From Deltaproteobacteria bacterium (GTDB taxonomy: Bacteria > Desulfobacterota > Syntrophia > Syntrophales > UBA8958), in assembly GCA_029561465.1 (NCBI GenBank), contig JAKQIZ010000050.1, positions 1 through 34,171 of the forward strand: DNA of 34,171 nucleotides, written 5' to 3'. Both the position numbers and the translations under genes were made by a program. This document shows positions 15,116-34,171 of this stretch, one piece after another (position 1 is the stretch's first letter; the number at the start of each line of letters is the position of its first letter). The notes below the pieces were generated by a model. The model had not been told where the DNA came from. It made no database searches and worked only from the letters and a program-made list of their open reading frames with translations.

Positions 15116-17005
15116 CTACAGCCAACGGTCGGTTTTCTGCTTCTCCTCGTACTCCGCCCGCAGGGCGATCTGGGTGGCCTCGGCGATGTCCTCCACCCGT
15201 TTGACCCAATCCTCGAACTTAATATCCACCCCAAAAATACCGATCATCTCATCCCGATCATCCATAATCGGTGCCGAGACGGTGATGCACAGGGCGCCGG
15301 TCATCTTGGAGATGTAGAAATTGGTGACATGGATCTTCCCCGTCTGCAGAGGCCGGATGAACCACTCCCGGTCGGACTGGTCCGTACCGACGCCGTAGTT
15401 CTCGTATTTGGCCCGGTCCTGAATATTGGTGATGTTCTTTGTCGTCTTCCGGCCGTTCATGTCCACGACATAGGCGAATTGGATGGAGGGGTTCTCCTCG
15501 ATACATTGCTGCATCACCGGTTCTTGTTCCTCCGGTTTCATCGTCTTGATGGCAGGGTGCTCGATGATCTGCTTCACCACCGCCACGGCGGCCTGGGCCG
15601 CTCGGTATTTAATCTTGTCCAGCTCCGACATGAAAAGCTCGGGGATGTACTTCCGGACCCGCTTCTCCATCTCTTCGTTGGAGATGCTTGTGACCCTACC
15701 GGACTCGTATTCTTCATTTATCCACTTGTGAATCTTCGAGATTCCTGGGTGACGCTTGTCGATCTCCGCTGCGTCATGAAGGCCGAAATGGGAATTGATC
15801 CAGAAGGCAATCCCCGCCTTTCCTGACTTGTCGGTGATCATGGGCACGATGGGGCGTTTAAGAAGCTTGGTGGTATCGAAGATATTGTATATTTCCTCAC
15901 ATTTGATCAGCCCGTCCACATGGACTCCCGCCCGGGTGACGTTGAAATCGGCGCCCACAAAGGGATAGTTGGCGGGGATCTTGTGGCCGATTTCCTTTTC
16001 GAAATACTGGGCGATATCGGTGATCACCGTGGTGTCGATGCCATGGTCATTTCCCGTCAGGGCAATGTACTCAATGATCAATGCCTCGATGGGTGGGTTG
16101 CCGGTCCGCTCCCCCAAACCAAGAAGGGTGGCGTTGGCGGCACTACAGCCATAAAGCCAGGCGGTGGTGGCGTTGATCAAGGCCTTGTGGAAATCGTTAT
16201 GGCCGTGCCATTCTAGGAGGTGTCCGGGAACGCCGGCATCGTCGATGAATGCCCGGACCAGCTTATCCACACTTCTGGGAAGTGATGCCCCGGGATAAGT
16301 CACGCCGTAACCCATGGTGTCGCAGAGCCGGATCTTGATATCGATCTTGCTTTCCTCGCGGAGCTTCATCAACTCGATGGCAAAGGGGATGCAGAAGCCG
16401 TAGATGTCGGCCCGGGTAATATCCTCGAAATGGCAGCGGGGGATGATGCCCTCCGCCAGTATGGAACGGACGATATTGAGATAGTCGTCCAAGGCCTGTC
16501 GCCTTGTTTTGTTGAGCTTGAGGAAGATATGATAATCGGAAACGGACGTAAGGATTCCCGTTTCCTTGAGTCCGGCCTCCTTTACCAGGCGTACGTCCTC
16601 TTTAGCGGCCCGGATCCAGCCCGTTACCTCCGGATAGCGCAGTCCCAGGGAAAGGCACTTATTCACCGCCTCCCGGTCCTTCTTGCTGTACAGGAAAAAT
16701 TCCGTCTGGCGGATCACCCCGTTTTCACCACCCAGACGGCTCATGAGGATGAAAAGATCGAAGATCTGCTTTACCGTGTAAGGGGGGCGGGCCTGTTGAC
16801 CGTCCCGGAAGGTGGTGTCGGTGATGAAGATTTCATCGGGCGGCGTGATGTCCATAAGTTTATGATCAAAATCGATCCTGCTGACCTGTTCGTAGGGGAA
16901 AACATCTTTTTGCAGATTCGGTTCGGCGATATCCTTCAGTTCATAGCGCCAGAATTTAGTATGCTCGTGGTCCAGGATCTTCTTGTTCTTATTCCATTTA
17001 GCCAT
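15116..17005 (-). CDS. DRE-TIM acyltransferase (Re-citrate/homocitrate synthase-like) with C-terminal Cache-like domain
   Basis: A 629-residue protein from ATG 17005, ten bases after GGAG. Residues about 55-340 form the HMGL-like TIM barrel: metal-binding DTTFRDGQQ (63-71), E102 in QTEFF, HGHND (267-271) and GLGERTGN (296-303). Residues 340-460 contain VTRAGVHVDGL, as in LeuA and homocitrate synthases. The clade signature FRDGQQ-ARPPYT with SDYHIF and CHFEDITRAD is the one I associate with Re-citrate synthase of clostridia and syntrophs, which make citrate from oxaloacetate and acetyl-CoA. Residues about 505-600 are unexpected: AYVVDMNGRK, DREWFIRPLQTGK, NFYISKMTGALCITVSAPI and IGIFGVDI match the PDC/Cache sensory fold usually found outside the membrane in receptors. 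No membrane segment is present, so it would sense a cytoplasmic ligand. Exact substrate is inferred. Confidence 0.8.
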   Translation of the reverse strand: MAKWNKNKKILDHEHTKFWRYELKDIAEPNLQKDVFPYEQVSRIDFDHKLMDITPPDEIFITDTTFRDGQQARPPYTVKQIFDLFILMSRLGGENGVIRQTEFFLYSKKDREAVNKCLSLGLRYPEVTGWIRAAKEDVRLVKEAGLKETGILTSVSDYHIFLKLNKTRRQALDDYLNIVRSILAEGIIPRCHFEDITRADIYGFCIPFAIELMKLREESKIDIKIRLCDTMGYGVTYPGASLPRSVDKLVRAFIDDAGVPGHLLEWHGHNDFHKALINATTAWLYGCSAANATLLGLGERTGNPPIEALIIEYIALTGNDHGIDTTVITDIAQYFEKEIGHKIPANYPFVGADFNVTRAGVHVDGLIKCEEIYNIFDTTKLLKRPIVPMITDKSGKAGIAFWINSHFGLHDAAEIDKRHPGISKIHKWINEEYESGRVTSISNEEMEKRVRKYIPELFMSELDKIKYRAAQAAVAVVKQIIEHPAIKTMKPEEQEPVMQQCIEENPSIQFAYVVDMNGRKTTKNITNIQDRAKYENYGVGTDQSDREWFIRPLQTGKIHVTNFYISKMTGALCITVSAPIMDDRDEMIGIFGVDIKFEDWVKRVEDIAEATQIALRAEYEEKQKTDRWL

Positions 17006-17020
17006 GTCGGGAATGCTCCT

Positions 17021-17057
17021 GAAAACAAGAAAGGGCGCCTGAGATTTCACGCGCCCT
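17021..17057 (-). terminator. Intrinsic terminator after the LysM gene, in the leader of the synthase gene
   Basis: On the minus strand AGGGCGC (17057-17051 reading AGGGCGC) pairs with GCGCCCT (17038-17032) across a 12-base loop, followed by TTCTTGTTTTC. It lies 26 bp after the LysM stop and ends only 15 bases before the synthase ATG. It may end the LysM message or act as an attenuator for the synthase. Confidence 0.65.
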
Positions 17058-19452: not shown

Positions 19453-20712
19453 TCAAACGAGCATGTCTATCCAGGCGAACGAATCGCCGAGGCTGACCCG
19501 TACCTGCTCTCCCGTTACCATATCTCTCATCTCCGCCTGCTGCGCCTCGATTTCACGGTCGCCGATGATCAGAACGCGCCGGCATTTCAGTTTGTCCGCC
19601 CTTTTCATCTGGCTTTTCAAACCCCGGGACTGGTAGTCCATTTCCACCTTCCGCCCCCGGAGGCGCAAATTATTGCACAGGCGATAGGCAAATTGCTCTG
19701 CCGAAACGCCCAGGGCGGCGATAAAAAGGTCAGGCAGCCGGGAAGGGGGGGGGGCGGACGTATCGGCGGTCAGGGCGAGGAGCCGCTCGAAGCCGATGGC
19801 AAAACCGATCCCCGGGATGTCCGGTCCGCCGAGGTCGCGGATGAGGCCGTCATATCGGCCGCCACCGGCCACGGCATTCTGGGCGCCTAGAAATTCCGTG
19901 GTGATTTCGAAGGCGGTTCGGGTGTAGTAATCCAGACCCCGCACCATCCGGGGATTGACGGTATAAGCGATGTCGAAGATGGCGAGGGAAGAAAGTACCT
20001 GCGCGAAATGATCCTTGCATTCCTCGCAGAGAAAATCCGTGATGCTTGGCGCCTTGGTGATGATCTCCCGGCAGGCCTCAATTTTGCAGTCGAAGACCCG
20101 CAGGGGATTGGTGCCGAGACGGCGGCGGCAATCATCGCAGAGATCCGCCTCTTTTCCCGCCAGAAAACTTTGGACGGAGGTGCGATAGGCGGGACGGCAG
20201 GCCGGGCAGCCGAGAGAGTTCACCTCGAGATGCGGTGATTCCATACCGACAGATTGGAGAAAATGTAGGAGCATAAGGATGACTTCCGCGTCGATGCGGG
20301 GGTCCTCATGGCCGAGAATTTCGACATCGATCTGATGGAACTGGCGGTATCGTCCTTTCTGGGGACGTTCGCGTCGGAACATGGGACCGATGGTGTAGAG
20401 CTTGGCGATCGGATCGGTGGCGTGGAGGTGATGTTCGAGGTAGGCCCTGATAATCGAAGCCGTAGCCTCCGGCCTGAGCGTCAGGCATTCATCGCCCCGA
20501 TCCCGAAAGGTGTACATCTCCTTTTCCACGATATCCGTGGCTTCCCCAATCCCCCGGGTGAAGAGATCTGTCTTTTCCAAAACGGGGACGCGGATCTCGC
20601 GGCAACCGAAGGCGGTGAAAATTCTCCTTGCTTGATCTTCCACATATTGCCATCTGCCCGTTTCCTCGGGGAGGATATCCTTAAAACCTTTTACAGCGGT
20701 AATGAGTTCCAT
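19453..20712 (-). CDS. hisS: Histidyl-tRNA synthetase
   Basis: A 419-residue class II synthetase from ATG 20712. Motif 2 is PMFRRERPQKGRYRQFHQID, the histidine-specific loops are RGLDYYTRTAFE and AVAGGGRYDGLI, and motif 3 is GIGFAIGFERL; the C-terminal anticodon domain follows (about 325-415). The insertion domain contains CPACR, CDDCRRR and CEECKD pairs that could bind zinc, as in several anaerobes. The linker between catalytic and anticodon domains (SAPPPS) is encoded by a run of ten C residues (19745-19754 on the plus strand as G), a slippage-prone tract. No strong ribosome site is seen. hisS and aspS form a two-gene operon, a common arrangement. Confidence 0.96.
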   Translation of the reverse strand: MELITAVKGFKDILPEETGRWQYVEDQARRIFTAFGCREIRVPVLEKTDLFTRGIGEATDIVEKEMYTFRDRGDECLTLRPEATASIIRAYLEHHLHATDPIAKLYTIGPMFRRERPQKGRYRQFHQIDVEILGHEDPRIDAEVILMLLHFLQSVGMESPHLEVNSLGCPACRPAYRTSVQSFLAGKEADLCDDCRRRLGTNPLRVFDCKIEACREIITKAPSITDFLCEECKDHFAQVLSSLAIFDIAYTVNPRMVRGLDYYTRTAFEITTEFLGAQNAVAGGGRYDGLIRDLGGPDIPGIGFAIGFERLLALTADTSAPPPSRLPDLFIAALGVSAEQFAYRLCNNLRLRGRKVEMDYQSRGLKSQMKRADKLKCRRVLIIGDREIEAQQAEMRDMVTGEQVRVSLGDSFAWIDMLV

Positions 20713-20880: not shown

Positions 20881-21951
20881 TCAACTTCCGTTTGCTTTCC
20901 GGAGAAAGCTGCCGGGGTAGCGGCGATCCAGGCCTTCTGTTCGCAAAAAACGCCTGCCTTCTTCAAGGCTGGCAAATTCTCCGACCAAGACCCGATTCCA
21001 GACGCCTTTACCTTTTATTGACACCTCTTCTATACTTACATGCCGATATTTATTCTTCAACCGGCCGATCTCGGCGGCGGCGCTACCGGTGTCAGGAAAG
21101 GCGGCAATCTGAATCCGGTAGGTTTTCTGCCCGGGGGATGACTTTTCTGCGGGTATTTCTTTTTTATCTTTTATTGGTGAGGTGGTTGACGACACAGGAG
21201 CGGTAATCTTCATTTCCATTAATTGGGAGGGAGGAGAGGGCGACTCTTCAGTAGCGGGAGCCGGAATAGGCGGATTCGCCGTTACTTCAGGCAAAGGGGG
21301 ACGGCGCCACCCTGTACCGTCATGATAAGCGACATCACCGGTAAGTCTATGGATGCGCAGGGGGAAGATACGTTGGGAAACCGTCAGCGTATCGTAGTGA
21401 TAAAGCTCAGGCCAAAAAAATGCAACGGCTGCAATTAACAGCGTCGGAACACCGATGAAAAAAAACCAGATTCCCCATCGTCCGGAATGCTTGTCGGTCG
21501 AGACAACGTCCTCGGCGTGGGGAGTGGCCATGATTTCCTTTTGATCCGAAACCTCCGGCTTATCGATAAGATTCGGGGCTGGGGCGGCTTCGGCAATTGG
21601 CGGCATCTCTTTATGACGCAGAGCATGAAACTTGATGAGATTTTCATAGGCCTGTTCAACTTCCCGGCGTTTATATGCCGCCTTTTCATCCCAGAAAGGG
21701 ACTTGCGGGTAACGGCCCTCCCGCCAGGCTTCGTTCAATTTCTCATATGCCGTTTGGATCTCCTCCCGCGAGGCGCCGGGAGCAATCTGGAGAATGTTGT
21801 AGGCGGCATGGAAATCGATTACGTTATCAGGGGGAAGATCCGGATCATCGAGAGCGGCAACCTTATGATAGAGGGTTTCCAACTCCCTGATGAGATTGTC
21901 GTTGCCTTCGGGAACATCCGTTTCTCTTCCTGGCCTTTCTTCCTCAGTCAA
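20881..21951 (-). CDS. Membrane protein with J-like domain and C-terminal SPOR domain
   Basis: A 356-residue protein starting at TTG 21951, six bases after AGGGAGG; the TTG overlaps the TGA of the preceding gene (TTGA). Residues about 48-108 resemble a J domain (DFHAAYNILQIAPGASREEIQTAYEKLNEAW), but the HPD tripeptide that activates DnaK is missing. Residues 160-181 form one membrane helix (WFFFIGVPTLLIAAVAFFW). A Pro/Ser-rich stretch (220-270) leads to a SPOR domain at about 276-352 (YRIQIAAFPDTGSAAAEIGRLK), which binds septal peptidoglycan strands stripped of stem peptides. The topology puts the J-like part in the cytoplasm and SPOR in the periplasm. It would connect the cytoplasmic ATPase and HTH partner to the division site or cell wall. 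Confidence 0.75.
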   Translation of the reverse strand: MTEEERPGRETDVPEGNDNLIRELETLYHKVAALDDPDLPPDNVIDFHAAYNILQIAPGASREEIQTAYEKLNEAWREGRYPQVPFWDEKAAYKRREVEQAYENLIKFHALRHKEMPPIAEAAPAPNLIDKPEVSDQKEIMATPHAEDVVSTDKHSGRWGIWFFFIGVPTLLIAAVAFFWPELYHYDTLTVSQRIFPLRIHRLTGDVAYHDGTGWRRPPLPEVTANPPIPAPATEESPSPPSQLMEMKITAPVSSTTSPIKDKKEIPAEKSSPGQKTYRIQIAAFPDTGSAAAEIGRLKNKYRHVSIEEVSIKGKGVWNRVLVGEFASLEEGRRFLRTEGLDRRYPGSFLRKANGS

Positions 21952-22697
21952 GGCGAACCTCCCTGTTCGGTTTGCAGTTTTTTTATATAACCTTTGATTA
22001 TCCCCTCGGGATCACAATGAATGATCTGGGCGTATATTCTCAAGAAACCTTTCAAGTATGCAAGAGGCGGCAGTAAATGGTATTGGTCGCCCTCCAGGGC
22101 CTCCAGCATGGACATCTTGATCTTACTTTGAATAGCGATTTCTTCCAGAGCAACCCCTGCCTGTAACCGCCAGTTTTGGAGATCCAGGCCGGAGATGGCT
22201 TCTTTTTGCTGGAGATCACATATGCTGACCGGATTCGGGGTGGATCTTGTTTCCGGGGCGACCAAATCTGTCTCGTCGGCCGGTACGGAATCGGTTTCGA
22301 TACTATTCATATATGTTGTATCTTCGCCGACATCATCGGGATGAGGCAGTCGAATCAGTTTGCGGCCTCGAGCCGAAGTATCTCGTGTGAATGGATACAG
22401 GGGCGCAGGTTCCCGGACCCGATCCTGATAACACATCTTTTCATTCAAAAGTCCCTGAGCGATAAGCCTCTGATCATAATTCCGGCGCGATCTCTCATCA
22501 ATCAGGACCAGATATGCTTTTTCCAGTTCCGTCAAAAGTTCCTGCCTTTCTTCTTCACGGAAAAAGGAATAGGAGGCAAGAGACTCATGGGCGTAGAGCT
22601 CATGGATCTCCTGGTAGGCCCGGCGGATCTCGTAAGGAGAGGCATCAGGGTTGACTTCGAGGATTTCATAAAGAGTATGGCCGCGAAAGCTGTTCAT
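21948..22697 (-). CDS. J-domain protein with RodZ-type HTH domain
   Basis: A 249-residue cytoplasmic protein from ATG 22697. Residues about 7-78 form a J-like domain (TLYEILEVNPDASPYEIRRAYQEIHELY to AYLVLIDERSRRNYD); the HPD loop is replaced by AHESL. Residues 80-165 are a charged, low-complexity linker. Residues about 170-242 form a helix-turn-helix of the RodZ N-terminal (HTH_25) type: LQNWRLQAGVALEEIA, KIKMSMLEALE, and PLAYLKGFLRIYAQ. In RodZ this module binds MreB; here there is no membrane anchor. It starts 16 bp after the ATPase gene and overlaps the next gene by 4 bp, so the three are one operon. A role in polar or cell-shape organisation is inference. Confidence 0.78.
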   Translation of the reverse strand: MNSFRGHTLYEILEVNPDASPYEIRRAYQEIHELYAHESLASYSFFREEERQELLTELEKAYLVLIDERSRRNYDQRLIAQGLLNEKMCYQDRVREPAPLYPFTRDTSARGRKLIRLPHPDDVGEDTTYMNSIETDSVPADETDLVAPETRSTPNPVSICDLQQKEAISGLDLQNWRLQAGVALEEIAIQSKIKMSMLEALEGDQYHLLPPLAYLKGFLRIYAQIIHCDPEGIIKGYIKKLQTEQGGSP

Positions 22698-28194: not shown

Positions 28195-28403
28195 GCTTAT
28201 GTCAAACCGGTCAGAACCGGGAATGAATTATGATGCCCATATAAAGAACAATTCTAAACAATCAAGCCCTGTAATAAAAGTGTGCATAAACGGAAAGGGA
28301 CTTGTTAATATTAATCACTTCATAAAAAATTGGGAAAGGACATTTGTGCTGCCGGCAATTATCAATTATCAATGATCGTTGTTTGCCGGTTCAGGAGCGG
28401 AAG

Positions 28404-29594
28404 ATGGAAGAGGCAATAAAGTACATGGCGGAAATTACGGCGGCCCCCTTAATGTACGGCCGCCGCATTCAGAAGGAAACCGGCAGAAGGGTCGTCGGCT
28501 ATGTGTGCAGCTATACCCCGGAGGAGATTATCATCGCCGCCGGCGCCCACCCCCTGCGCCTGTTCGGCCCGATGGGGGAGTTGGAATGTGTGGACACCCA
28601 CCTACAATCCTACTGTTGTTCGGTGGTGCGGGGCATTCTCGAGACCGGTCTCAAAGGCGATGCGGATTTCCTCACCGGAATGGTCTTTCCTCATACCTGC
28701 GATTCCATCCAGCGCCTTTCCGATCTCTGGCGGATAAATGTCACCCATGGTTTTCACCTCGATCTCGTCCTGCCGGTGAAGTTAAATACCGACAGCGCCA
28801 GGAAATATTATCTCGACGTGCTCCGACGGTTCCGGATGGAGTTGGGAAAGAAGCTCGGGGTGGATATCGGCGACGAAGCCCTGAGGAAGGCCTATGAAAC
28901 GCTTCGGGAGATTCGCCGTCTCCTGGCCGGGATTTATGAACTGCGCAGCGCCAATCCGACCCTGCTGTCCGGCGATGATCTCCTGACCATAGTCAAGGCC
29001 GCCATGATCATGGACCGCCGTGAGGCAAGTGATCTTTTACAGCGTGTCGCCACCGGGCTGAAAGCGAAAATTGAAGCACATAAATCGCTGCCGGAATCCG
29101 TAAATTCTTCTCCGCCCCAGGAAAAGGAAATCAAGCGGCTCGTCTTGGCGGGGGGCATATGCAATCACCCGCGCCTCCACGGCATGATCGAGGCGGCTGG
29201 CGGCGCCGTGGTATGGGACGATATGTGCACGGGGGCGCGTTATTTTCAAACCGCCGGTCCCGGCATCGAAAGTGATGGGTCAACAGCAGCCGGTAAGGGC
29301 GATACCATGGCGGCCATCGCAGAGCGTTATCTCAATCGGGAGGTTTGTCCCGCCAAACACAATGGCTTGACCAGCCGTGCGGAGGCGATCATTTCCTTGG
29401 TCAGAGAAAAGCAGGCCCGCGGCGTGATCTTGCTGCATCTGAAATTCTGCGATCCTCATGCCTTCGATTACCCCTACCTGAAGAACGCCCTGGATCGGGA
29501 AAATATACCCCATCTCATGCTGGAGATCGAGGACCCTCTCCCGGCGGAAGGACAATTGCGCACCAGATTCGAAGCCTTTTTGGAAATGTTCTAA
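28404..29594 (+). CDS. 2-hydroxyacyl-CoA dehydratase / benzoyl-CoA reductase-type subunit (first)
   Basis: A 396-residue protein of the HgdB/BcrC superfamily, starting at ATG 28404 six bases after CAGGAG; upstream in-frame codons lack a ribosome site. Candidate FeS cysteines are C35 (YVCSYTPEE), C62 or C71/C72 (ECVDTHLQSYCC) and C99 (PHTCDS), the classical three-cysteine set. The C-terminal half has the second Rossmann-like lobe with LAGGICNHPRLHGMIE and HLKFCDPHAFDYP. Family members take one strongly reducing electron from an ATP-driven activator and remove water from 2-hydroxyacyl-CoA or reduce aromatic CoA esters. The partner subunit follows after 13 bp. No activator (HgdC/BcrA/BadF type) is in the window. 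Confidence 0.88.
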   Translation: MEEAIKYMAEITAAPLMYGRRIQKETGRRVVGYVCSYTPEEIIIAAGAHPLRLFGPMGELECVDTHLQSYCCSVVRGILETGLKGDADFLTGMVFPHTCDSIQRLSDLWRINVTHGFHLDLVLPVKLNTDSARKYYLDVLRRFRMELGKKLGVDIGDEALRKAYETLREIRRLLAGIYELRSANPTLLSGDDLLTIVKAAMIMDRREASDLLQRVATGLKAKIEAHKSLPESVNSSPPQEKEIKRLVLAGGICNHPRLHGMIEAAGGAVVWDDMCTGARYFQTAGPGIESDGSTAAGKGDTMAAIAERYLNREVCPAKHNGLTSRAEAIISLVREKQARGVILLHLKFCDPHAFDYPYLKNALDRENIPHLMLEIEDPLPAEGQLRTRFEAFLEMF

Positions 29595-29607
29595 ACAGGA
29601 GTGATTA

Positions 29608-30843
29608 ATGGCCACAAACATCGACAAGGAAAAACGAAAAATTAAATCCGTCAAGAAAATGAAGGAAATAATGACATTATATTATATCGATGCCAAGACG
29701 GCCGCTGATAACGGCAAAAAGGTCGCCTGGATTACCAGCGGCGGTCCGGTGGAACCTCTGATTGCCATGGATATCATCCCGGTGTATCCGGAAAACCACG
29801 GGGCGATGATCGGAGCCGCCAAAATGGGCGTCGATCTCTGCGAAAAGGCGGAAGCCATGGGTTACGCCGGTGATCTTTGTTCCTACGCCCGCTCCGATAT
29901 CTCTTGCGCCACGGTGAACGGCGGTCCCATTGGGGGGCTCCCCAGGCCGGACCTGCTGGTCTGCGGCAACAACATCTGCGGCACCGTGCTGAAATGGTAT
30001 GAAATCCAGGCCCGCTATTTCGATGTTCCGCTGTTTATCTTCGACACGCCGTTCTGCCACACCGCTTTCCACCCCGAGATGCGCCGTTATGTTCGCACGC
30101 AGATCGATGAATATATAGTCTTTCTGGAATCGGCAACGGGAAAGAAGCTCGATCGGGACCGGATGGTCGAGGTTGGGCGCCTCTCCGTGGAGGGACAGCG
30201 CCTGTGGCAGGCCGTACTTGATACGACGATCAACAAGCCCGCACCCATGAGCGCTTTCGACGCCTTCTTCCACCTGGCCCTCATCGTTACTCTTCGTGGG
30301 ACCCGGCAGGCCGTGGATTATTACCAGGAATTGCTGGCGGAGATGAACCAGCGGGTCCGTGACGGGATCGGCGCCGTTCCCCGTGAGAGTTACCGACTGC
30401 TGTGGGACAACCTTCCCATCTGGTACCGGACCAAGTGGCTGTCAGACAAGTTCGCCGCCCATGACGCCTGCCTGGTGGCCGACACCTACACCTCCGCCTG
30501 GTGCGGCTCACTCCGCTATATGGATGAAAATGATTTCCTAACCTCCATGGCCGAGGGGTATACCCGGATCTATCTGAATATCGGCGTCGACGAGATGGCG
30601 CGAATGGTAGGTGAAATGGTGGACAAGTACGATGTGGATGGCCTTGTAATGCACTCCAACCGGAGCTGCAAGCCATACTCCTTCGGGCAGTACGACATCA
30701 GGAAGATCGTGGAAGACGGCAAAGGCATCCCTTCTTTGATTATTGAAGCGGATATGTGCGATGAACGCAATTTTTCCGAAAGCCAGATCGAGATGCGCAT
30801 TGAGGCCTTCATTGAGATGCTCAAGCAGAAAGACGGGCAATAA
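29608..30843 (+). CDS. 2-hydroxyacyl-CoA dehydratase / benzoyl-CoA reductase-type subunit (second)
   Basis: A 411-residue protein from ATG 29608 with AGGAGTG upstream. It shares the fold of its neighbour but has a different cysteine set: the first position is replaced (WITSGGPVEP instead of a Cys-x-Pro-E loop), while C91 (GDLCSYARSD), C100, C119 and C124 (LLVCGNNICGT) are likely ligands. This resembles BcrB/HgdA-type subunits that pair with a BcrC/HgdB-type partner. The C-terminus keeps HSNRSCKPYSFGQYDI and ADMCDERNFSESQIEMRIEAF, typical of the family. The two probably form a heterodimer with one or two 4Fe-4S clusters. Substrate unknown; context with an acyl-CoA ligase favours a CoA ester. 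typA follows after 10 bp. Confidence 0.88.
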   Translation: MATNIDKEKRKIKSVKKMKEIMTLYYIDAKTAADNGKKVAWITSGGPVEPLIAMDIIPVYPENHGAMIGAAKMGVDLCEKAEAMGYAGDLCSYARSDISCATVNGGPIGGLPRPDLLVCGNNICGTVLKWYEIQARYFDVPLFIFDTPFCHTAFHPEMRRYVRTQIDEYIVFLESATGKKLDRDRMVEVGRLSVEGQRLWQAVLDTTINKPAPMSAFDAFFHLALIVTLRGTRQAVDYYQELLAEMNQRVRDGIGAVPRESYRLLWDNLPIWYRTKWLSDKFAAHDACLVADTYTSAWCGSLRYMDENDFLTSMAEGYTRIYLNIGVDEMARMVGEMVDKYDVDGLVMHSNRSCKPYSFGQYDIRKIVEDGKGIPSLIIEADMCDERNFSESQIEMRIEAFIEMLKQKDGQ

Positions 30844-32722: not shown

Positions 32723-34171
32723 CTACACGTAATTTCGGTGCTGGATCGCTTCGATATAACCCGCGGCGCCGGGGGAGATCTGAGCGGCATTGGCTTCGTC
32801 GGTATCCAGATGCATGTCCAGGCGATAACTGGGATTCACACGGATTAGGACGTCGCCGAATATCAGCTCCCGCACCCCCTTGACCTTCACCATGACCACG
32901 TCCTTGTCCCGGAGTCCCAGGCTCAAAGCCTCTTCCGGAGAGATGTGGATGTGACGTTTGGCGCAGATGACCCCCTTGTCCAGGGTCACCGTTCCCACTT
33001 CTCCCTCCATGATGACGCCGGGCGTCCCTTCGATATCACCGGAATCCCGGATGGGGGCATCGATGCCCAGGCGAAACTGTTCGGTGCGGGCGATTTCCAC
33101 CTGTGACTCTTTTCTCAGGGGGCCCAGGATTCGCACCTTTTCGATCCGGCCTTTGGGCCCAACGAGATTTACCGTTTCCACGGCGGCGAACTGGCCGGGC
33201 TGACTCAGTTCCGAACGCGGCGTCAGGGAACGTCCGGGGCCGAAGAGGGCCGTGAAATCATCCAAAGACAAATGGACGTGATGCGCCGAAATGCTGAGGG
33301 GAATCGCTTTGGACTGAAGCCTTTCCAACTCGCTCACAGCGAGGGATCTCCCCAGGGCATGCACGGTTTCCCGGGCGATCATCCGCTCCTCATCGGCAGG
33401 CACGACCAAAACGCGGATCTTGGCGGAAGGATCGGAGATATCGACGATCTGCCCCCGCATGGCCACGGTTTTACGATTGATGTCATCCGTGACGGCAATC
33501 CCGAAGACCTCCATTCCCTGGCAGATGCGGGCACGGATTTCCGGGGAGTTTTCCCCGATACCGCCGGTAAAGATGAGGACGTCCAAGCCTCCCAGGGCGG
33601 CGACATAGGCGCCGATGTATTTTTTGATCCGATAGCAGAAGACACTGAGGGCCATTTTGCAGCGCATATCTCCGCCTTCCGCCGCTGCCAGTACTTCCCG
33701 CATATCGTTGCTCTTACCGCTGAGGCCCTTGAGACCGCTTTCCTTGTTCAGTATCCGGTCGAGATCGTCGTAAGTCATACCGGCATGGCGCATTAGATGG
33801 AGCAGCGCTCCGGGGTCCACGTCCCCGCCCCGGGTGCCCATTACCATTCCCTCCAGAGGCGTCATGCCCATGCTCGTATCGATGCTGCGCCCGTGATCCA
33901 CGGCGCATACGGAGGCTCCACTGCCCAAATGACAGGAGATAATCTTGAGATCGCCGATGGGAATTTTCAATGACGTGGCCGCGCTGAGAGATACGAAACG
34001 GTGATTAGTGCCATGAAAACCGAACCGCCGGATCTGCTCTTCGTCACATAGCTCCATGGGCAGGGCGTAACGGTAGGCGGCCTCCGGCATGTTGAGATGA
34101 AAGGACGTATCGAACACCGCGACCTGGGGCACCCCGGGGAGAAGTGTTTTCAGCGTCTCGATCCCCTCGAG
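32723..34171 (-). CDS. Acetate kinase-PduL fusion (N-terminus beyond the window)
   Basis: The minus-strand frame runs off the right edge (LEGIETLKTLLPGVPQVAVFDTSFH continues upstream of the first visible Met), so the 5' part is missing. The visible kinase part has PQVAVFDTSFH, FGFHGTNHR, SCHLGSGASVCAV, MGMTPLEG and FTGGIGENSPEIR, all acetate kinase signatures, and ends near 33330. After a short linker a PduL-type phosphotransacylase follows (about 33310-32726) with zinc-binding histidines in ISAHHVHLS, AKRHIHIS and LDMHLDTDEAN. One polypeptide would thus convert acyl-CoA to acyl-phosphate and then make ATP. Both halves look complete in motifs, so the join is not a frameshift artefact. It converges with typA, 18 bp away. 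Confidence 0.9.
   Translation of the reverse strand, partial: LEGIETLKTLLPGVPQVAVFDTSFHLNMPEAAYRYALPMELCDEEQIRRFGFHGTNHRFVSLSAATSLKIPIGDLKIISCHLGSGASVCAVDHGRSIDTSMGMTPLEGMVMGTRGGDVDPGALLHLMRHAGMTYDDLDRILNKESGLKGLSGKSNDMREVLAAAEGGDMRCKMALSVFCYRIKKYIGAYVAALGGLDVLIFTGGIGENSPEIRARICQGMEVFGIAVTDDINRKTVAMRGQIVDISDPSAKIRVLVVPADEERMIARETVHALGRSLAVSELERLQSKAIPLSISAHHVHLSLDDFTALFGPGRSLTPRSELSQPGQFAAVETVNLVGPKGRIEKVRILGPLRKESQVEIARTEQFRLGIDAPIRDSGDIEGTPGVIMEGEVGTVTLDKGVICAKRHIHISPEEALSLGLRDKDVVMVKVKGVRELIFGDVLIRVNPSYRLDMHLDTDEANAAQISPGAAGYIEAIQHRNYV

Follow-up and report, generated by a model that had tools for sequence, protein, structure and literature searches.

A probable Re-citrate synthase with a C-terminal Cache domain encoded in a Syntrophales genome

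The complete gene at positions 15116..17005 (minus strand) of contig JAKQIZ010000050.1 encodes a protein of 629 amino acids, in which a DRE-TIM enzyme of the Re-citrate synthase type is followed by a single C-terminal Cache domain. The gene lies in a window of 34,171 nucleotides, which is the whole stretch of DNA that was analysed (assembly GCA_029561465.1, Syntrophales). The enzyme is most likely a Re-citrate synthase, a reaction that we infer from orthology and genomic context, and the Cache domain is probably a cytoplasmic allosteric module that binds a small carboxylate. Cache domains usually lie outside the cytoplasm in signalling proteins, flanked by a membrane helix on either side, a setting that is not found here; the module is fused to an enzyme that uses acyl-CoA.

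The open reading frame runs from an ATG at 17005 to a stop at 15116 and the protein starts with MAKWN. An alternative in-frame GTG is present at 17050, 45 bases upstream of the ATG. The ATG is preferred because it is preceded at a distance of 10 bases by AGGAG (17016..17020, minus strand), which by sequence inspection is its likely ribosome-binding site, and because the relative from genome G362 has the same MAKWN start. On the same strand, the catalytic part consisting of a TIM barrel and subdomains covers residues 57-454 (15644..16837), as judged from PF00682, Foldseek and residue invariance. Residues 455-504 (15494..15643) form a linker and the long helices with which the Cache module begins, placed by AlphaFold2 at 461-481 and 491-504. 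The Cache (PDC) sensor module itself (residues 505-600; 15206..15493) was delimited with Pfam, AlphaFold2, Foldseek, VIA-align and the pocket alignment. A C-terminal helix (residues 601-629; 15119..15205) is predicted by AlphaFold2 with low confidence (pLDDT 50-60); in receptors, its place is occupied by a helix leading toward the membrane. The convergent uvrD gene ends 6 bases away, the neighbourhood also contains a gene for a LysM protein and aspS, and the next gene along (19453-20712) is hisS by inspection. Near the edge of the window, a single open reading frame (32723-34132, minus strand) combines acetate kinase (PF00871, profile 140-392) with a PduL-type phosphate propanoyltransferase (PF06130), which places both enzymes of acetyl-CoA/acetate conversion on one chain. 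An adjacent gene pair (20881-21951 and 21948-22697, minus strand) encodes proteins with N-terminal DnaJ-like domains, the domain being weak in 20881-21951; one member has a C-terminal SPOR domain and the other HTH_25 (RodZ-like). A tandem pair at 28344-30843 (plus strand) encodes 2-hydroxyglutaryl-CoA dehydratase D-component proteins, a pairing also known from benzoyl-CoA reductase-type and hydroxyacyl-CoA dehydratase systems.

Both halves of the protein are recognised by Pfam: the HMGL-like family PF00682 matches residues 60-333 with 96.2 bits (cut-off 29) and MCP-like_PDC_1 (PF22673) matches residues 496-599 with 52.7 bits (cut-off 27). The dCache_1 match of 34 bits is below its cut-off of 45, and a LeuA_dimer domain was not detected by Pfam in the 629 residues. 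The AlphaFold2 model of the whole protein has a mean pLDDT of 88.1 and a pTM of 0.72, and residues 455-629 modelled alone reach a mean pLDDT of 86.7. The catalytic part adopts the DRE-TIM barrel with its subdomains, and its best solved matches in Foldseek are homocitrate, methylthioalkylmalate, isopropylmalate and citramalate synthases. For residues 455-629, the top Foldseek match is KinD (E 1.5e-8), followed by Tlp3, DcuS, DctB and CitA among others, and the top rows of the VIA-align comparison with Cache structures have Z scores of 13-16. Cache domains typically begin with a long helix, which here corresponds to residues 461-481. With a profile match above the cut-off and a fold including this helix, residues 455-629 belong to the Cache superfamily. 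In the model, helix 461-481 serves as a linker and not as a membrane anchor. No membrane helix was found in the 629 residues, the highest mean hydropathy over 19 residues being 1.26. Thus, the original prediction of a cytoplasmic DRE-TIM enzyme fused to a Cache-like domain, which occupies the position of the LeuA regulatory domain, was borne out by Pfam, AlphaFold2, Foldseek and VIA-align; the module indeed follows the DRE-TIM barrel and its subdomains.

The catalytic and metal-binding residues R67, D68, E194, H267, H269 and N303 do not vary among the homologues that have a residue at the respective position, which agrees with the earlier claim that residues 1-460 contain all catalytic motifs. 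Genome G362, also from the Syntrophales, contains a single homologue at E<=1e-60, which has 629 amino acids, a calculated mass of 71,766 Da and 79% identity over 629/629 residues, the Cache domain included. G362 is almost certainly Syntrophus aciditrophicus, and the homologue is very probably its purified Re-citrate synthase (SYN_02536). This enzyme was reportedly purified from S. aciditrophicus by Kim et al. in 2013 (J Bacteriol 195:1689), with a tagged subunit of about 72.9 kDa and with citrate as the only product. Without the Cache domain, the enzyme would have about 455 residues and a mass of only about 50 kDa, so that on these figures the Cache part would have been present in the purified protein. 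The same fusion thus appears to be present in an already purified Re-citrate synthase, so that the protein described here is not a new discovery. To our knowledge, neither an effector of the purified enzyme nor a Cache domain has been reported in the S. aciditrophicus work of 2013. A more recent article cites Kim et al. 2013 for the S. aciditrophicus Re-citrate synthase (PMC12016533).

The genomic context agrees with citrate formation. A protein of the Si-type citrate synthase family PF00285 was not found in the genome carrying the gene, which encodes an aconitase (886 bits, cut-off 612) and an NADP-isocitrate dehydrogenase (616 bits, cut-off 335) according to NCBIfam, the two genes being separated by about 1 kb on contig C68. 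A separate citramalate synthase is also encoded. Among 297 Desulfobacterota genomes, 116 contain only the enzyme described here, 134 only the Si-citrate synthase, 29 both and 18 neither. The resulting anti-correlation has an odds ratio of 0.034 (Fisher p 2e-34), the genomes being related and hence non-independent, and the enzyme takes the place of the Si-citrate synthase. Moreover, the gene for the Cache-fused homologue L038, located after aspS, is followed by genes for two-subunit aconitase-family proteins and NADP-isocitrate dehydrogenase, that of L110 by an isocitrate dehydrogenase gene, and that of L075 by genes for malate dehydrogenase, aconitase and isocitrate dehydrogenase. We regard the enzyme as most likely a Re-citrate synthase because of the orthology at 79% identity, the avoidance of the Si-citrate synthase and the operons with aconitase and isocitrate dehydrogenase. 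It is very improbable that the protein is instead a homocitrate, isopropylmalate or citramalate synthase. The top NCBIfam matches are models of 2-isopropylmalate and homocitrate synthases, and among the scanned PF00682 proteins of its own 92%-complete genome no 2-isopropylmalate synthase model scores above the cut-off. However, the NCBIfam matches, including all 2-isopropylmalate synthase models, stay far below their cut-offs (for example, 132 as compared to 517 bits), and the mutual exclusion with the Si-citrate synthase, the aconitase/isocitrate dehydrogenase operons and the identity to the very probable purified enzyme speak for citrate. The three other synthases were therefore rejected as the main reading on the scores and the context; of the earlier label, which left citrate and homocitrate side by side, the citrate half is the more likely.

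The fusion is widespread. A scan of the genome collection yielded 591 relatives. The best 80 of these are full-length or nearly full-length fusions, apart from a small number of incomplete frames, of which some lie at contig ends, and they come from about ten phyla: Desulfobacterota, Nitrospirota, Spirochaetota, Lentisphaerota, Omnitrophota, Elusimicrobiota, Fibrobacterota, Armatimonadota, Margulisbacteria and Auribacterota. Both PF00682 and PF22673 were matched in 51/51 aligned homologues (E<=0.001), and therefore the fusion is not due to chance. The enzyme is present in 145 of the 297 Desulfobacterota genomes, with one copy in each, and in 96 of the 155 Syntrophales genomes. The survey of homologues, which had been proposed together with the original prediction, revealed the Cache part in 139 of the 145 Desulfobacterota proteins; two others end at contig ends and four lack the domain, as deduced from coordinates. 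A chance or assembly fusion was thereby ruled out. The fusion should also be visible in automatic annotations, and the enzyme as such is already known. The Cache-less homologues are L116, L117, L118 and L119 (genomes G013, G031, G153 and G274), and the genes of the first three adjoin those for malate dehydrogenase and fumarase, for isocitrate dehydrogenase, and for aconitase, respectively. Thus, the Cache domain is dispensable for the reaction, given that four homologues do without it and that three of them are encoded beside aconitase, isocitrate dehydrogenase or malate dehydrogenase. In quick trees, the Cache-less forms branch, weakly supported and at two or three points, from within the group that bears the Cache domain, and it is suggested that they may have arisen by secondary loss of the domain.

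Where the Cache part is retained, it is constrained. In 7/7 near relatives, the dN of the Cache part (0.019-0.062) is lower than that of the catalytic part (0.034-0.121), one pair showing 0.019 and 0.034, respectively, and omega ranges from 0.009 to 0.037 among the seven where dS is measurable. The low dN and the strong purifying selection argue that the Cache domain is functional. Across phyla, the mean conservation of the Cache part (0.62) is below that of the catalytic part (0.73), the pocket being the exception to this trend. Using an alignment with PctA built from the profile of 62 Cache domains, we found that Y121, R126, W128, Y129, Y144, D146 and D173 of PctA correspond to T541, R546, W548, F549, Y564, S566 and D594. 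These seven PctA residues are the positions of the dCache_1AA motif. Among 81 sequences, R546 is conserved in 76, W548 in 81 and F549 in 80; Y564 is aromatic in 78/80, S566 and D594 are each found in 80/80, and position 541 is free to vary. When the 96 Cache columns are ranked by conservation, the top 14 include five of the seven positions of the receptor pocket (p=6e-4). In PctA, R126 contacts the carboxyl group of the ligand, D173 is a key residue of the motif and Y129 has a structural role (PMC10104139). In KinD, the exact counterpart of R546 in the alignment is the residue altered in the R131A mutant; wild type KinD binds pyruvate and an Arg-to-Ala mutant, printed as R95A, binds acetate (PMC3831638). 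The pocket is thus predicted to be of the carboxylate type, with a mixed character of amino acid receptors and KinD, because R546 matches both R126 of PctA and R131 of KinD and because the motif positions are conserved. A full dCache_1AA amino acid sensor was rejected: D146 is replaced by Ser in 80/80 sequences and the position of Y121 is variable, the other five positions being kept or conservatively changed. Hence, of the idea that the domain senses a carboxylate or an amino acid, the carboxylate-type pocket is supported and the amino acid motif is only partly retained, differing at S566 and position 541. The Cache motifs were found to be kept among the homologues and the predicted structure is Cache-like, so that neither of the two outcomes named in advance as refuting the original prediction was observed.

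The Cache module could also contribute to oligomerisation or stability only, its pocket being devoid of a regulatory ligand. PAS and Cache domains often act in dimerisation (PMC8694187) and Cache-less homologues occur in the same type of operon, which would be in line with such a role. Nevertheless, we consider it unlikely, since the most conserved positions coincide with ligand contacts of the receptors and not with helix surfaces (mean conservation of 0.47 for helices 461-504 as compared to 0.62 for the Cache core), and W548, S566 and D594 are invariant. A docking function, by which the module would hold the enzyme at the membrane or at a partner protein such as aconitase or a redox partner, could give a role to the long C-terminal helix, which spans residues 597-625 in the full-length model and has no assigned function. 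Neither a conserved surface nor a partner gene was identified, however, and the conservation is centred on the ligand pocket, which makes docking a far-fetched explanation.

According to the favoured model of a Re-citrate synthase under allosteric control, the enzyme would join acetyl-CoA and oxaloacetate to citrate, which would feed the synthesis of 2-oxoglutarate and glutamate in an anaerobe lacking the Si-citrate synthase. The pocket formed by R546, W548, F549, Y564, S566 and D594 would take up a small carboxylate, for which an amino acid or a 2-oxo acid of the glutamate branch or of pyruvate supply is the most plausible candidate. The signal might then reach the catalytic oligomer via helices 461-504 and 597-625 and raise or lower its activity, comparable to the effect of leucine on LeuA, so that citrate formation would be under feedback or feed-forward control. 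On the other hand, the conserved pocket residues could instead be needed for folding or for contacts within the oligomer. Metabolism is controlled in part at the step of citrate synthase. Among the papers searched, none linked a Cache domain to Re-citrate synthase or to isopropylmalate synthase, and none described how Re-citrate synthase is regulated or reported a metabolic enzyme with a Cache domain. With a sensor that has a recognisable pocket, a ligand class that can be guessed from the receptors and an existing purified enzyme, the regulation of Re-citrate synthase becomes directly testable, and the Cache-less homologues provide a natural set for comparison. It is an evenly balanced question whether a receptor-type Cache domain has been turned into an allosteric module that acts in the cytoplasm on an enzyme of central carbon metabolism, allowing direct control of citrate synthase by a metabolite in a large group of anaerobes. 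If so, Cache domains would extend from overwhelmingly extracytoplasmic sensing into enzyme allostery.

DRE-TIM synthases can bear differing C-terminal domains, and swapped regulatory domains are a known theme, as illustrated by LeuA and the RAM domain. LeuA of M. tuberculosis (1sr9, 3fig, the latter with bound leucine) also consists of a DRE-TIM barrel with subdomains and a C-terminal module, but its module binds leucine, whereas that of the protein described here has the Cache fold. The homocitrate synthase of Sulfolobus acidocaldarius (6ktq, solved as dRAM) is the structure that the catalytic part matches best in fold, but it is an archaeal homocitrate synthase with a RAM domain instead of a Cache domain. 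On the sensor side, KinD of Bacillus subtilis (4jgo, 4jgp) shares R131, equivalent to R546, and a YxSxxTG stretch; however, its module is extracytoplasmic, in tandem and attached to a kinase, and lacks an Asp equivalent to D594. Of the dCache_1 receptors PctA and Tlp3, PctA has R126, W128, Y144 and D173 in common with R546, W548, Y564 and D594, but Y129 and D146 are replaced by F549 and Ser566, Y121 is not conserved, and the module described here is single and cytoplasmic. Cache domains are confidently extracytoplasmic in 78% of cases, and the output domains given in the 2016 survey are signalling ones (PMC4822843). YkuI_C and Diacid_rec are principally intracellular families, whereas nearly all others are principally extracellular (PMC4822843), and thus the extracytoplasmic setting is typical but not defining. 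YkuI (2bas, 2w27; fold match with Z 12.8) likewise carries its Cache family C-terminally to an enzyme domain; that domain, however, is an EAL signalling domain and does not belong to central metabolism.
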